IMG/VR virus record: IMGVR_UViG_3300042924_005772
Coordinates: 1-35,977 of that record
Direction: 5' to 3' (one strand)
Length of the DNA: 35,977 nt
From: a virus
The notes beneath the pieces are model-generated. The model was given only the letters and a program-made list of their open reading frames with translations. It ran no database searches and was not told where the DNA came from. This document shows positions 4,347 to 34,970 of the stretch, in pieces (position 1 is the stretch's first letter; the number at the start of each line of letters is the position of its first letter). A program made the position numbers and the translations under genes.

Positions 4347-5011
4347 ACCTTAAGTTCCCTCAATCGATCAATGAATGAGCTATTTTTACATTGGTGGAAC
4401 AAAACAGTTTTAGGCTTGAGGATGTCGGTTAAGCTTTTTTTATCTGGAAAGTCGAAATCACGCTTTTGGTTCCAGATATGCTGGATGAGTTCCGTCCAGT
4501 GTGCGTTGTTGACGATATCGTCAGCGCAAGCAACGTCCCAAGCGATGCGATCCAACTTGCAAACATATTGGGCTTGGTGGAGAACATCTGCCGGGTAAAC
4601 AGCATTGCCGCTCATATGTAGCGGGACATTCTCGGCTACTACTCTCGCTCCCATAAAGGGCTTACCACACGAATTGTACTCAGCCTCAATCTGATCGATC
4701 CAGGAGGGGACGATAGGGACACAATCTGCCTCAAACCAGAGGAATGGGCGTTTGATGTCCCAAGTAATATGCTGGCAAAGTCTTTTAAAAAGGTGGTTCG
4801 GGCTCTGAGGCCAGCCACGTTCATCCTCGTCGTGGGGGACAAAGAAACTTGTTTTGGCAAACGGGCTTTTGAAGGCCGATGTGTCGACCCTTTTGGATGC
4901 GGAAATGATGAGCTCATGTTTCTCCGTGGGTGTCTTGATCTCCTCAATCCAGTCCAGCAAGCGTTGCGCAGCTGGTGCGTCCAGATGGCTGGTTGGCAAA
5001 ACCAAAAGCAT
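4343..5011 (-). CDS. Glycosyltransferase-like protein
   Basis: This 222-residue protein shows a GT-A-like layout: an N-terminal beta strand (MLLVLPTSHLD) and a helix. A WFEADCVPIVPSWIDQIE segment carries an E-x-D in place of DxD, and C-terminal histidines (TVLFHQC) could act as ligands. It is the first gene of the cassette after the tail fibre gene, whose stop lies five bases before this ATG. The position immediately after the fibre suggests it may glycosylate the fibre, or a host-surface glycan, but this is inference. The exact family is not certain. Confidence 0.65.
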   Translation of the reverse strand: MLLVLPTSHLDAPAAQRLLDWIEEIKTPTEKHELIISASKRVDTSAFKSPFAKTSFFVPHDEDERGWPQSPNHLFKRLCQHITWDIKRPFLWFEADCVPIVPSWIDQIEAEYNSCGKPFMGARVVAENVPLHMSGNAVYPADVLHQAQYVCKLDRIAWDVACADDIVNNAHWTELIQHIWNQKRDFDFPDKKSLTDILKPKTVLFHQCKNSSFIDRLRELKV

Positions 5012-5015
5012 CGGA

Positions 5016-6797
5016 CTACCCTAGGGCAATAATGTCGGCTGGTATAGCGGTTTTTTTAAGTTTCTCGCCAACTGAACCAGGTGTGCTGGAAGCCGACGAA
5101 AGGGCGTAGTCCCAGACATTAGCTTGGGTTAGAACGGCGATGCCGACGGTGTTGTCGACTGCCACGCCTGCGGCCACGGAGCTTGCGGCTGGTACGGCAA
5201 GGGTACCTGTAAAATTACCAGAGGCGTAAGATACTCCGCTTCGGACATTGGCTGGAGTTGGATATGTTCCGGTGGCGTTTGGGTCCGTTAATGTTTTATC
5301 GGTGTTCGTGCTGGTACGTCCGACGAAAACATTGGATGTTTGGTCTAACAAACGTGCGTGCCCGGCAATTGGAAATGCGCCAAAAGCTCCAAATTGTAGT
5401 TCTTTGTAATAAACAGGCGAGGCATAGTTTATGTTGCTAATAACATTATCCACACCTGGATTCACAAAAACAGTCGATCCGACACCAGGAGCACCAAACC
5501 CCCCGTTGCTGCCAACTGCCCTAGTCACAGTTAGGCTCGCATTATTCCCACCCATAAGGATAGCGGGACAAAGATTCCCACTTCCGCCTATTGCGGACCC
5601 ATTGACCGTGGCAATAACGGCGTTTTGTATGACGATGGCACGAGAATTTGATGCGGGATACATCCCGCCTGTTGCGTTACCGTTAATTGTTATGGTATTA
5701 CTTGATCCGCTTTGACAAAGAATCCCAGATCCGCCACCGCCTAACCCGCCAGTTCCTGGCCAGCCAAAAACATTTCCGTTAACGGTGACCGGGCCGAAGG
5801 AGTTTTTATCAATAGCGTGACCGAGTCTGCCGGCGGTAACATTACCATTGATTATAAAAGTTCCTGGAGACTCCCGTACGCCAGAGCCAGATCCTGAAAC
5901 ATCGGAGCCAAAAACATTTCCAGTAACATTAAAAGTAGCGTTAACGTTTTGGGAAATAAGGCAATAATTTGTTGCTCCCGAAGCACCTATGTTTCCAGTA
6001 ATATTGTACGTGGTAATAGCACTACCGCTTATACTTAAACCATTTGCCACAGTTCCAACAATATTCCCAACCACAGTGATTGGGATATTTTGCCCCGATG
6101 AAACGGATGTATTAGAGCTATTATTTGAACCGCCAACCAGATTACAATTTAAATTAATAAACGAGTTGGTTAACGCCGAGCCTGTTGGAGAGTACCCAAC
6201 ACTAACCCCAACAGTACTTCCACTTGAAGAAGACCCTCCTGTGACTGGACCAGTATTTACTGTTAGTTGAGTTGGTTGGTTGTCAGAATTAAAAATACCA
6301 ATACCGTGAGTATTTGTGCTTGCTGTCCCACCAGTTACACTTCCGTTTACAGTTACATAACCCCCCCAAATATAGAGCGCAACAGAATTGCCTTGACTCC
6401 CACCAAGTAAATTACCATTTATAGTGACATTCGGAATATTCCCGGAAGAATGCGTAACATAAATGGTGTTAACAGTTGCAGTTGTTGCGCTACCAGTTGC
6501 ATTCCCAGTAATTACTCTAGTTCCTGTACCAGTAATAGTTAATACCGCACTACTTCCAGCGATAAAGCCGTTTGTTGCGGTCACATTATAAGAACTACCG
6601 CTAGGAATTGAAAATCCACCTCCCGCAACAGCTGCCCCTCCAGCAGTTGTCCTAAGACTCAAAACCGTAACATTCTGGTCAATTGTGACTGTTCTATTAT
6701 TGGCGTGAACATCATCGGCGGCAGTCGGAAGTGTCCCTCCGTCCCAGGTGGCGGTGTTCGACCAGTTTCCAGTGGCTACTGCATATCGTGTGGCCAT
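5016..6797 (-). CDS. Tail fibre/adhesin with beta-helix repeats
   Basis: This 593-residue protein is almost entirely Gly, Ser, Thr, Asn and Val. About ten degenerate copies of a strand-turn unit of the form (V/I)T(V/I)NGN(V/A)xGG occur between about residues 110 and 440, spaced 20-35 residues. This is the pattern of a right-handed beta-helix. The N-terminus (NWSNTATWDGG, then TVTIDQNVTV) is a common start of phage and bacterial adhesins. The C-terminus is less repetitive and may hold the trimer tip. It would mediate host binding. Spacing to the small protein upstream is one base, so the two are probably co-translated. No chaperone or endosialidase domain is visible. Confidence 0.8.
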   Translation of the reverse strand: MATRYAVATGNWSNTATWDGGTLPTAADDVHANNRTVTIDQNVTVLSLRTTAGGAAVAGGGFSIPSGSSYNVTATNGFIAGSSAVLTITGTGTRVITGNATGSATTATVNTIYVTHSSGNIPNVTINGNLLGGSQGNSVALYIWGGYVTVNGSVTGGTASTNTHGIGIFNSDNQPTQLTVNTGPVTGGSSSSGSTVGVSVGYSPTGSALTNSFINLNCNLVGGSNNSSNTSVSSGQNIPITVVGNIVGTVANGLSISGSAITTYNITGNIGASGATNYCLISQNVNATFNVTGNVFGSDVSGSGSGVRESPGTFIINGNVTAGRLGHAIDKNSFGPVTVNGNVFGWPGTGGLGGGGSGILCQSGSSNTITINGNATGGMYPASNSRAIVIQNAVIATVNGSAIGGSGNLCPAILMGGNNASLTVTRAVGSNGGFGAPGVGSTVFVNPGVDNVISNINYASPVYYKELQFGAFGAFPIAGHARLLDQTSNVFVGRTSTNTDKTLTDPNATGTYPTPANVRSGVSYASGNFTGTLAVPAASSVAAGVAVDNTVGIAVLTQANVWDYALSSASSTPGSVGEKLKKTAIPADIIALG

Positions 6798-30169: not shown

Positions 30170-30922
30170 ATGGCTACCACCACTACCAAAACAACGAAGC
30201 AGAAGAAAACCGATTGCTGGCAAGATGTCGAGCAGACATTGTCCGCTGGCGTTAACCGACTGGTTCTTTACGGGCCTCCTGGAACTGGCAAGACTTACGC
30301 TGGTCTGACGATGGCGACCAAGGATCGTCCGACCTTCCGTCTGATCTGCACCCCCGATATGACCAACGCCGATGTCACGGGGGCTTGGATGCCGAACGAG
30401 AAGGGAACCTTCTCTTGGCACGAGGGTCAAGCGGTCAAGGCTTGGCGGACTGGCGGTCGTCTCATCGTTGACGAGATCGACAAGGCGGGGGGCGATGTGT
30501 TCGCTACCTTGCTGGCGATGACCGACAGCCCCGAGTCTTGCAAGTGGGAGAACCCGCAGACTGGCAAGGTCGAGACTCCCCAAGAGGGCTTCAGCGTGGT
30601 GATGACCACCAATCTGGAGAACCTTGAGGATCTGCCCGAGGCCATCCGTTCCCGCTTCCCGATCCGTATCCGCATCAACAAGCCCCACCACACGGCACTC
30701 GAACGCTTGTCCCCCGATCTTCGGGACTACGCCGAGCGTTCCGCTGACTTGGGTGAACGGCGGATCGATCTGCGAACCTTCTTCGCCTACGACAGCCTAC
30801 GCAAGTCTGTCGGTGCGGAGAGGGCGGCTCACTTGATCTTTGACGACAAGGCCAAGGACTTCTTGACCGCCATCAAGATCGATCAGATCAACGGAGCCAA
30901 GCTCGCCGAGAAGTCCGAATAA
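30170..30922 (+). CDS. MoxR/CobS-like AAA+ ATPase
   Basis: This 250-residue AAA+ protein has Walker A YGPPGTGKT (Lys41) and Walker B RLIVDEIDKAG (Asp101, Glu102). Sensor 1 is VVMTTNLE (Asn148), followed by AIRSRFPIR with the probable arginine finger. It belongs to the MoxR/CobS-type group, which act as chaperone-like ATPases with a VWA protein encoded next to them, as here. The physiological target in phages is unknown. CCGAAAGGAGATAC gives strong translation. Confidence 0.88.
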   Translation: MATTTTKTTKQKKTDCWQDVEQTLSAGVNRLVLYGPPGTGKTYAGLTMATKDRPTFRLICTPDMTNADVTGAWMPNEKGTFSWHEGQAVKAWRTGGRLIVDEIDKAGGDVFATLLAMTDSPESCKWENPQTGKVETPQEGFSVVMTTNLENLEDLPEAIRSRFPIRIRINKPHHTALERLSPDLRDYAERSADLGERRIDLRTFFAYDSLRKSVGAERAAHLIFDDKAKDFLTAIKIDQINGAKLAEKSE

Positions 30923-30961
30923 GTTAAGCAACCCTCAACCTTCAATGAAAGGAGGTAGCTG

Positions 30962-32329
30962 ATGCAAACCGCAATACTACCAGAGTTCATACGACAAGCT
31001 GGCAACCGCCGTGGTGTCAATGAGGCTTGGGACATCATCCGATCCTCGATGGATCGTGGCAGTCCCAAGACTTGCATTGAAGCACGACGGCTGATGGTTC
31101 CCTTCAACGAGGAGGCACGAGCCGAAGTCATCCGAGCCCACGAGATGATGCACATTCGATTGAGTCCGCCGAGTCTTGAGCCTTGGCTCAAGCGTGGCGT
31201 TGCCACCGAGCAAGCCCTAATGCTGGCCGAGGAATGTCGGATCAATCGGGTGCTTCAGAATGAAGGCTTCAATCCGAGTGAACATCTCTACGACGAGACT
31301 GACGAGATCAATGCTTACCGCTATGCCAAGGCCAAGGACTTGGCTGGTGTCATCCGTGTGGTGGCGGCAACACACGGAACCAAGACGCAGGAAGCGGTGC
31401 TTAAACAAATCGAGAAGGCTGGTCTTGAGAACGGAGAGTTGGAAACCATCCAAGGGGCTACGGATTTGTCCAATACGATCGCCGAGTTGCTCGACAACTA
31501 CAAGTATAATCTGACGAGCGACAAACCGATTGGTCGCAAGACCAAGGTGCCACTTACCCGTGGCTTCCTTGTGACCGAGAAAATCGCCACCGTTCTGGAC
31601 AAGTATATGGAGATTGCCGAGATGACCAAACGCATCCCGCAACTCCGACCATCCAGAAAGGTGCAGGATTCCGCTGCCGAATGCACGGCCAAGTTCGGTG
31701 ACTTGGTTGACGGCAAGGCATCCCTCAATCGGATGCACAACGGCAACCTTGGCAAGGTTCGCATCGCCTCGGATGTCGGTCGGGCTCCCCGCCGTATCGG
31801 TCGTTTGCTTACCGACCCGTATCGTCGGGTGTTCGATCGTGTCAAACGCAAGTCGGGCGGTGTCGTCTTGATTGATTGGTCTGGCTCGATGAGTCTTGAA
31901 CCCAAGGATATCTTGACGATACTTCAGCACGCTCCAGGAGCCACGATTGCGGCTTACGCCCACAAGGATGGGAGCAAAGGCGTCCCCAACTTCTGGGTGC
32001 TAGCCAAAGACGGCAAGATGGTCAGCAAGTTGCCGACCAAGCACGGCTGTGGCAACGGCGTTGACGGACCAGCCCTACGCTGGGCGTTAAAGGCCAGACG
32101 ATTCCAGAACGAGATGGTGCTTTGGGTTTGCGACGGAGCCGTCACCGATGGGGCTGACGATTGCTTCTATACCCATCTGGCGGCCGAGGCCAAGGCATTG
32201 GTCACGACTGGCAGAGTTGTGATGCAGAAATGTATGGAAGATGCGGTCGACTTCCTTAAGAAGTTGGCCAACGGACAGGTGTCCCCGACAGGCCCGACCT
32301 ATGTCGGCGAGCTACGCCGAAGCTACTAA
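30962..32329 (+). CDS. CobT-like VWA protein with HExxH motif
   Basis: This 455-residue protein has a C-terminal von Willebrand A domain: the MIDAS start is DWSGSMS (Asp305, Ser307, Ser309), and a later Asp is in VCDGAVTDG (Asp391). Near the N-terminus is HEMMH (residues 60-64), with EECRIN about 26 residues on (Glu90/91). This resembles the zinc site of VWA-associated metallopeptidase-like proteins. It is the partner of the MoxR ATPase 40 bases upstream. It may be a remodeller substrate receptor or a protease. Confidence 0.8.
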   Translation: MQTAILPEFIRQAGNRRGVNEAWDIIRSSMDRGSPKTCIEARRLMVPFNEEARAEVIRAHEMMHIRLSPPSLEPWLKRGVATEQALMLAEECRINRVLQNEGFNPSEHLYDETDEINAYRYAKAKDLAGVIRVVAATHGTKTQEAVLKQIEKAGLENGELETIQGATDLSNTIAELLDNYKYNLTSDKPIGRKTKVPLTRGFLVTEKIATVLDKYMEIAEMTKRIPQLRPSRKVQDSAAECTAKFGDLVDGKASLNRMHNGNLGKVRIASDVGRAPRRIGRLLTDPYRRVFDRVKRKSGGVVLIDWSGSMSLEPKDILTILQHAPGATIAAYAHKDGSKGVPNFWVLAKDGKMVSKLPTKHGCGNGVDGPALRWALKARRFQNEMVLWVCDGAVTDGADDCFYTHLAAEAKALVTTGRVVMQKCMEDAVDFLKKLANGQVSPTGPTYVGELRRSY

Positions 32330-33876: not shown

Positions 33877-34155
33877 ATGGAGAAACCCAAAACATTGAAA
33901 CTAAAACCGCTTAACAAATACAAAAACCTAAAGGAAAGCGAACGCAAACTTGTAGCCGAGGACTTACTTAAATCCATTCGTGGGAAACTCGTCCTTGGCC
34001 AAGCCTGTGCCATCGCTTACGGCAAGTTGCGGGAGACGGAACCCAGCAACGCCGAGGACATTGCACTACTTGGTGAGCAATACTTCGGGATGTTTTACGC
34101 CATTGCATTGACCACCCTCCGCATCACTGATGGCCGAAATGGAGTTGCCAAATAA
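33877..34155 (+). CDS. Hypothetical helical protein (92 aa)
   Basis: GAAAGGA precedes the ATG. The N-terminus is basic (KPKTLKLKPLNKYKNLKESE) and the remainder helical with AIAYGKLRETEP. The stop overlaps the next start (TAATG). The family is not recognised. Confidence 0.55.
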   Translation: MEKPKTLKLKPLNKYKNLKESERKLVAEDLLKSIRGKLVLGQACAIAYGKLRETEPSNAEDIALLGEQYFGMFYAIALTTLRITDGRNGVAK

Positions 34156-34388
34156 TGTCTGCCGTAAAGGACGATCCATACTTAAAAGAATACCTCAAAC
34201 TCCGTGGCAAAGTCCTTGTGGATGTAGTCAAGGATGAGGAAGGCGTTGATGGAGAACCCCTCTATGGCCTAGTCTTCAAGTCTGGGATCAAGGATCGCAA
34301 GCCATCGGTGGCTTGGGTCTACCGAGACGAAGAAGGCAATGGTGCGGGGTTCCTCAACATCATTGATGTCGACCTAGACGCCAAGTGA
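34155..34388 (+). CDS. Hypothetical protein (77 aa)
   Basis: A small alpha/beta protein with KDDPYLKEYLKLRGK and a C-terminal AWVYRDEEGNGAGFLNIIDV. It is translationally coupled to the upstream gene. A structured RNA element begins at the base after its stop. Confidence 0.55.
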   Translation: MSAVKDDPYLKEYLKLRGKVLVDVVKDEEGVDGEPLYGLVFKSGIKDRKPSVAWVYRDEEGNGAGFLNIIDVDLDAK

Positions 34389-34453
34389 TTGATGGGGCAT
34401 AGAGTCGGAAGATGATTCCGAACTGGAATTCCTCCAGGTTTAACACCCATCAA
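34389..34453 (+). ncRNA. Three-way-junction RNA element
   Basis: The whole gap between two genes folds on paper into a three-way junction. TTGATGGG (34389-34396) pairs perfectly with CCCATCAA (34446-34453). Inside it are two perfect hairpins: TCGGAA/TTCCGA (34405-34421, 5-base loop) and CTGGA/TCCAG (34423-34437, 5-base loop). It is not a tRNA: there is no T-arm and no anticodon arm of normal size. The following gene at 34459 lacks a ribosome site, so the element may control its translation. Confidence 0.5.
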
Positions 34454-34458
34454 GCTTT

Positions 34459-34644
34459 ATGAAAACTGAACCCAGACTCAGCGAAGAGTCGGTCTTGGTC
34501 TACGATATGGCCAGCTTTGTCAAAGCAACAAGGAACCTTGTTGCCAAGCCAAATCTGGAACTTGACGATACCACCCGCAACGACCTTAAGTTGTGGGCTG
34601 ACCAACTTCTTCGCCAAGTCAATCATTATAGGATGAGCAAATGA
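34459..34644 (+). CDS. Hypothetical protein (61 aa)
   Basis: Helical protein with LELDDTTRNDLKLWADQLLR near the end. No Shine-Dalgarno precedes its ATG; instead the RNA element at 34389-34453 ends five bases upstream. It shares ATGA with the next gene. Confidence 0.5.
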   Translation: MKTEPRLSEESVLVYDMASFVKATRNLVAKPNLELDDTTRNDLKLWADQLLRQVNHYRMSK

Positions 34645-34970
34645 CAATCGAACTAGATAGTTACGAAGCCAGCTTCGAACACAAGGGCAAGAACTACGAG
34701 GTCACTGGGTCAGTGACCCACGAGACCCATACCGAAGATGTCGGTATCGGGAGCTACGAATACTGGGGACACACGGAAACTGACAAACAACTTGTCGAGA
34801 TCAGCGAGTATGTGGATGCAGAATTCCACAACCTGCAGGTCTTTGAAAAGGGGTCGGAACATCCAGTGCTTGAGCCGTCAGCCGAACTGACGGAAGCCGC
34901 CGAGCTTGCCCTCTTTGGTGCAACCTATGAATATGCGGAACAAGTAGCCGCAGAAGGGAAACTACTATGA
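34641..34970 (+). CDS. Acidic hypothetical protein (109 aa)
   Basis: Beta-rich, acidic N-terminal two thirds (SFEHKGKNYEVTGSVTHETH) and an Ala/Glu-rich C-terminal helix. Coupled to both neighbours by ATGA. The family is not recognised; an anti-defence DNA mimic is one possibility. Confidence 0.55.
   Translation: MTIELDSYEASFEHKGKNYEVTGSVTHETHTEDVGIGSYEYWGHTETDKQLVEISEYVDAEFHNLQVFEKGSEHPVLEPSAELTEAAELALFGATYEYAEQVAAEGKLL

Follow-up and report, generated by a model that had tools for sequence, protein, structure and literature searches.

The element at positions 34389 to 34453 on the plus strand of the window, that is, of the whole analysed stretch of 35,977 nucleotides (IMG/VR virus record IMGVR_UViG_3300042924_005772), is almost certainly a member of an undescribed family of phage RNAs, which form a closed three-way junction and are made on the coding strand in polycistronic transcripts. 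In total, about 65 to 67 copies were found (39 non-redundant), some of them in near-identical contigs, and all reside in phage or viral records from several unrelated dsDNA phage lineages, T7-like ones included. The core strings had no relevant match in 5.39 million open papers, and searches by topic gave no description; subscription journals lay mostly outside this search, and an earlier description is possible. Regarding its role, the data lean toward a context-independent module.

In the window, an 8-bp stem closes two perfect hairpins within a 70-nt gap between a TGA at 34386-34388 and an ATG at 34459. The preliminary description had reported this sequence, its coordinates, the gap and the fold correctly, as well as the presence of CCTCC, which is located on the 3' side of the second hairpin. 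The features are, in order:

34155..34388, plus strand: upstream gene, 77 aa, no assigned function; its stop codon directly abuts P1
34389..34453, plus strand: whole three-way-junction RNA, type A; blind covariance-model match at 34385-34457
34389..34396, plus strand: 5' strand of P1, TTGATGGG; pairs with 34446-34453 (8/8); family-wide covariation with all pair types
34397..34404, plus strand: junction strand J12, GCATAGAG; near-invariant, with a C/A position coupled to the P2 loop
34398, plus strand: C34398 in J12, the base exchanging C/A between types A and B
34405..34421, plus strand: P2 hairpin TCGGAA-GATGA-TTCCGA, loop GATGN; about 97% of cells paired, double changes in 5 of 6 pairs
34422..34423, plus strand: J23, AC; present in all members but the divergent AP013544 (GC), the search pattern accounting for part of this constancy
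34424..34436, plus strand: P3 hairpin TGGA-ATTCC-TCCA in the family register (CTGGA-ATTCC-TCCAG, 34423-34437, in the window fold), including CCTCC; pairs covary, loop free
34437..34445, plus strand: junction strand J31, GGTTTAACA (family NNNU[G/U]AACA); constant at 9 nt, U(G/U)AACA near-invariant
34446..34453, plus strand: 3' strand of P1, CCCATCAA; same basis as the 5' strand
34459..34644, plus strand: downstream gene, 61 aa, no assigned function; starts 5 nt past P1, no Shine-Dalgarno sequence

The minimum-free-energy fold of the segment is exactly this three-way junction (-24.2 kcal/mol, z -2.7), a value equalled by 2 of 200 shuffles. Such stability is not unusual, as equally good folds are formed by 321 of the 2874 segments of this size in the window, and the minus strand of 34389-34453 even scores slightly better (z -3.5). 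Fold stability is only weak evidence for the element; conservation and covariation are the evidence.

An exact 24-mer search led to two close relatives, L002 and L003. In L003 the element is identical letter for letter despite a strongly diverged following gene, and in L002 it differs at one loop base. Identity to window positions 34155-34650 ends just past the element in L003 and, in L002, within the preceding gene about 150 nt upstream of it, a breakdown which suggests mosaic exchange around the element. Homologues of the upstream gene occur in L004-L008, of which L006-L008 have no RNA at that place; one of these latter records holds a diverged copy elsewhere. There, one P1 pair reads A-T in place of T-A, and the second hairpin keeps its form with a different sequence. 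In the 65-kb record of one close relative of the window phage no copy was found at all. Further members came from IMG/VR pattern scans built on the junction, the first broad scan returning 77 matches against roughly 28 expected by chance, as judged from a mis-specified pattern (one extra N) that served as negative control; about 20 of the 77 make the full structure. When the type A and type B cores were compared by BLAST with 50,697 phage records and 72,556 plasmid records, only chance matches appeared, and a match in cyanophage MbCM1 was rejected on inspection. No circularly permuted form was seen among the copies found, in searches that demanded a closed P1.

A covariance model, R1, was built from 13 members that excluded the window and its two near-identical relatives. 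Applied blind to the window, R1 returned a sole match in 36 kb, at 34385-34457 (65 bits, E 1.7e-15); thus the window element, which possesses P1, P2, P3 and the junction strands, is found by a model that had not seen it. Chance-pattern loci in the same search set reached an R1 E-value no better than 0.16, except L023, which proved to hold a genuine type B copy elsewhere in the locus. Likewise, the uncultured phage MedDCM-OCT-S45-C18 (AP013544, genus Ayaqvirus), the nearest deposited relative of one T7-like carrier (62% polymerase identity), was missed by the core-sequence BLAST and is therefore an independent match: it bears the element at the same place, before the polymerase gene (L318 1407-1485; E 1.5e-8), with a 10-bp P1, a somewhat degenerate core and GC as J23.

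The three closest relatives alone hold no covariation information. Across the 13 members without the window, 86.0% of cells were paired versus 62.8% after shuffling, 76 double-change cells were counted versus 26.1, and the score reached 0.676 versus 0.224, with slid versions at or below 0.209. With 43 members the double-change cells rose to 276 versus 93 for shuffled alignments, P1, P2 and P3 each being supported. Compensatory changes are thus abundant among the homologues, and the structured phage RNA proposed in the preliminary description is borne out by them. In an all-pairs scan of 39 non-redundant members with 45-nt flanks, the pairs of P1, P2 and P3 came out on top, joined by a coupling of position 14 (J12) to positions 29/30 (P2 loop), and no convincing pairing with the flanks emerged. 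Over the helices, G-U outnumbers A-C by 51 to 14, which indicates that the RNA is read from the plus strand, the strand of the genes.

This last result bears directly on the reading of the element as a feature of the DNA itself, such as an origin, a site of packaging or recombination, or a mobile insertion with inverted repeats. Its inverted-repeat ends, the breakdown of identity nearby in L003 and L002 and its presence or absence between close relatives would agree with such a reading. Nevertheless, the wobble-pair excess and the fixed strand relative to the genes already largely refute it, and the coupling between loop and junction, stems of any sequence and no target-site duplication noticed likewise oppose it, so that we regard it as very improbable.

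The conserved part of the family lies in the junction, whose strands G(C/A)AUAGAG, AC and U(G/U)AACA are nearly invariant. P2 is a 6-bp hairpin with the loop GATGN or GAGAN, and P3 is a freely variable hairpin, ranging together with its loop from 6 to 72 nt. Two subtypes can be distinguished: type A, to which the window copy belongs, reads GCAUAGAG with the loop GAUGN, and type B reads GAAUAGAG with the loop GAGAN and has a P1 displaced by one pair, G13 being paired in this type. Among 20 type A and 30 type B sequences the three features exchange together, C14, the GATG loop and P1 register A being combined in 19 of the 20 (the remaining copy has GAAG), and A14, the GAGA loop and register B in all 30. 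Watson-Crick pairing is possible in type A for C14-G30 and A15-U29, and in type B the same positions hold A-A and A-G. From this coupling we infer a direct contact between J12 and the P2 loop.

Rfam 15 returned no match at gathering score for the window element and none up to E 5 around it, and the other members searched in Rfam also gave no match to the element. The window element is not recognised as a tRNA by ARAGORN or RF00005, and the hammerhead core CUGANGA...GAAA...NUH is absent from the aligned members, again with no Rfam match; the preliminary description, which had set aside both classes, was right to do so. HDV-like and theta ribozymes found no support either, the corresponding flank-core covarying pairs being absent from the all-pairs scan and no HDV match appearing in Rfam. 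A riboswitch would call for a consistent downstream gene family and an expression platform, and here the neighbours are unrelated and the spacing variable. Three further candidates were rejected. One was a small peptide, MIPNWNSSRFNTHQAL*, overlapping the start of the next gene; given covarying stems and a variable P3, the members have no reading frame in common. Ribosome bypassing lacked matching in-frame take-off and landing codons; and CCTCC as a functional anti-Shine-Dalgarno sequence is not conserved in the family. The role once suggested for CCTCC is accordingly unsupported, P3 varying freely in both sequence and length.

Carriers have no protein family common to all of them. More than 1000 bacterial genomes subjected to pattern and model searches gave no confirmed copy: the covariance model matched in 0 of 20 genomes, and the pattern in 0 of 398 from the phylum of a Deefgea genome (Pseudomonadota), 0 of 345 from the phylum of a Bacteroidetes genome and 2 of 289 from the phylum of an Opitutia genome (Verrucomicrobiota), neither of which the model confirms. 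Most phage records carry exactly one copy. Record G1090 (99.8 kb; L236) has two, about 2.2 kb apart and each followed by a similar ...AATGCGATTTCCTNAAATAT... stretch, and G1074 shows a weak partial second match. The T7-like carriers possess single-subunit RNA polymerases. In the window, a MoxR-like ATPase gene is followed by a phrog_33218 gene (30170-32329), a pair that recurs in carriers; the element lies directly behind it in group-3 phages and 2 kb further on in the window.

In most lineages the element sits between co-directional genes and on their coding strand, and the upstream stop codon usually lies 0-20 nt before P1; other upstream stops lie 45-72 nt before it, mostly with an extra RNA domain in between. 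Its neighbours include genes for DnaB helicase, a replication initiator, DNA methyltransferases, terminase subunits, a Holliday junction resolvase and RNA polymerase. In L087 it lies immediately behind a tRNA-Met, and in the T7-like L206, L172 and AP013544 it stands 9-12 nt ahead of the start codon of the RNA polymerase gene, in L206 and L172 also directly behind a good sigma70-type promoter. In L252 a tRNA-Leu-like sequence, called a tRNA by neither ARAGORN nor Rfam, comes after the element.

In one phage group a second structured RNA of about 60-70 nt lies directly upstream of the element (L170, L190, L191, L184, L168, L197, L208, L209, L219 and L023), and it was found solely in that position. 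It has a covarying outer stem, a hairpin that is often GCAA-looped, and another hairpin whose loop region reads CCTTTCC in 10 of 10 copies and TCCTTTCC in 9 of 10, the former resembling the anti-Shine-Dalgarno tail of 16S rRNA; no Rfam match was obtained at the 4 loci searched. Downstream of the element, L209, L219 and L170 show a further stretch that may be structured, its ends closing as in GAAGC...GCTTC.

This setting could suggest a cis-acting leader or intercistronic switch, in which a ligand, a protein or ribosome traffic would open or stabilise P1 and thereby control translation of the next gene, as in an orphan riboswitch or in translational coupling. In fact, the next start lies 6-24 nt past the junction in about 16 of 36 copies (30-80 nt in about 10), is sometimes placed inside P1' (L317, L215) and mostly has no Shine-Dalgarno sequence, upstream stop codons often adjoin P1, and the polymerase gene follows closely in the three T7-like phages. 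However, cis control leaves unexplained the roughly 9 of 36 copies with no gene within 100 nt downstream or none at all, and the downstream genes have no common family or pathway. The preliminary description had pointed out that the next gene lacks a ribosome site, which is true and carries little weight, a missing Shine-Dalgarno sequence being ordinary in carriers: a rough count finds one at only 18 of the 39 genes in the window phage, and at roughly 30-60% of genes in most carriers. We therefore consider a cis-acting leader rather improbable.

Independence of context and of any common gene partner, together with a copy number of mostly one per genome, would also be expected of a trans-acting phage small RNA, either trimmed from the transcript or transcribed from a promoter of its own, whose junction would bind a widespread host factor such as the ribosome, RNA polymerase, a nuclease or a defence protein. 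Terminator-like hairpins or U-runs follow some copies (L213, L192, L191, L183, L115; terminator-like hairpins in the first two), a sigma70-like promoter follows the copy in L310 and convergent genes the one in L309, and the two copies in L236 have no same-strand gene end within 150 nt upstream. A promoter directly upstream was rejected as a general rule, being detected at p<0.05 in only 4 of 38 copies, and most copies lie flush behind a stop codon. Moreover, the absence of the element at the locus in close relatives and from the whole 65-kb record implies that it is dispensable. On balance, a trans-acting role is possible and somewhat doubtful.

Since no gene is common to all carriers, a phage protein partner is not to be expected, and an element found beside unrelated genes with no such partner points to a self-contained module that either acts on the transcript it belongs to or is released from it. 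Our first choice, held tentatively and placed ahead of a trans-acting RNA and then of a cis-acting leader, is that the element may serve as a self-contained intercistronic processing module, possibly a self-cleaving one. We hypothesize that the rigid junction would either cleave its own backbone, as a new small ribozyme class, or offer a defined cut site to a host nuclease, and that the cut would separate the messages of unrelated genes and define the ends of the RNAs. Processing is favoured by the sense orientation, the co-directional genes, the stop codon mostly 0-20 nt before P1, the tRNA-Met adjacency and the polymerase gene downstream in three T7-like phages. Small ribozymes combine a fixed, conserved core with a freely variable loop, a catalytic-style anatomy which the fixed junction and free P3 loop of the element resemble, and its positions resemble those of mRNA-processing elements. 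Against processing, the two T7-like copies that start at a sigma70-type promoter have no upstream gene to cut off, the copies in L309, L310 and L236 lie at operon ends or off genes, where splitting an mRNA would be of little use, and clear tRNA adjacency is known from one lineage.

The more specific proposal, in which the intercistronic module of these many unrelated phages would be a small self-cleaving ribozyme of a new class, or else a different RNA fold with catalytic or ligand-binding properties, and would have two natural core variants (C14/GATG and A14/GAGA), is conceivable and rather unlikely. Each of the roles named in the preliminary description, namely cis-regulatory RNA, processing site and small ncRNA, retains some probability, and control of the next gene in cis is not general. 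A nearly invariant junction in phages without a common gene implies a general task, whether RNA cutting, interaction with a universal host component or control of the ribosome; if true, a new small ribozyme, a phage RNA directed against the host or a translation device of such breadth would be notable. The family now comprises about 67 natural variants in two subtypes and has a covariance model.

Several known systems share part of these properties. The fold of theta and other HDV-like ribozymes is a nested double pseudoknot whose P1 involves the 5' flank. Theta ribozymes of gut phages are, like the element, small structured phage RNAs, sometimes beside a tRNA and independent of particular genes (PMC10879173), but they are minimal HDV-like ribozymes, whereas the element is a plain three-way junction without flank pairing. 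The hammerhead ribozyme, with intergenic examples in phages (PMC3088659), likewise combines a three-way junction, a conserved core and free stems. Its core is, however, CUGANGA / GAAA / NUH, in contrast to G(C/A)AUAGAG, AC and U(G/U)AACA in the element. The manA RNA (RF01745) is also a structured phage RNA, and the 194-kb phage record L091 carries both, with manA at 4919-5131, less than 500 nt from the element; the two differ in fold and sequence and occupy separate loci there. The put antiterminator RNA of HK022 needs no phage protein and consists of two hairpins in tandem where early operons begin. The element resembles put as a phage RNA needing no phage protein, and differs in being a three-way junction that is sometimes located at operon ends. 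The RNase III sites of the T7 early mRNA are intercistronic and on the sense strand, one of them directly before the RNA polymerase gene, a placement the element shares, and its proposed job would be theirs, or that of theta ribozymes beside phage tRNAs. In contrast to the T7 sites, which are long near-perfect hairpins with no conserved junction, the element is built around one.
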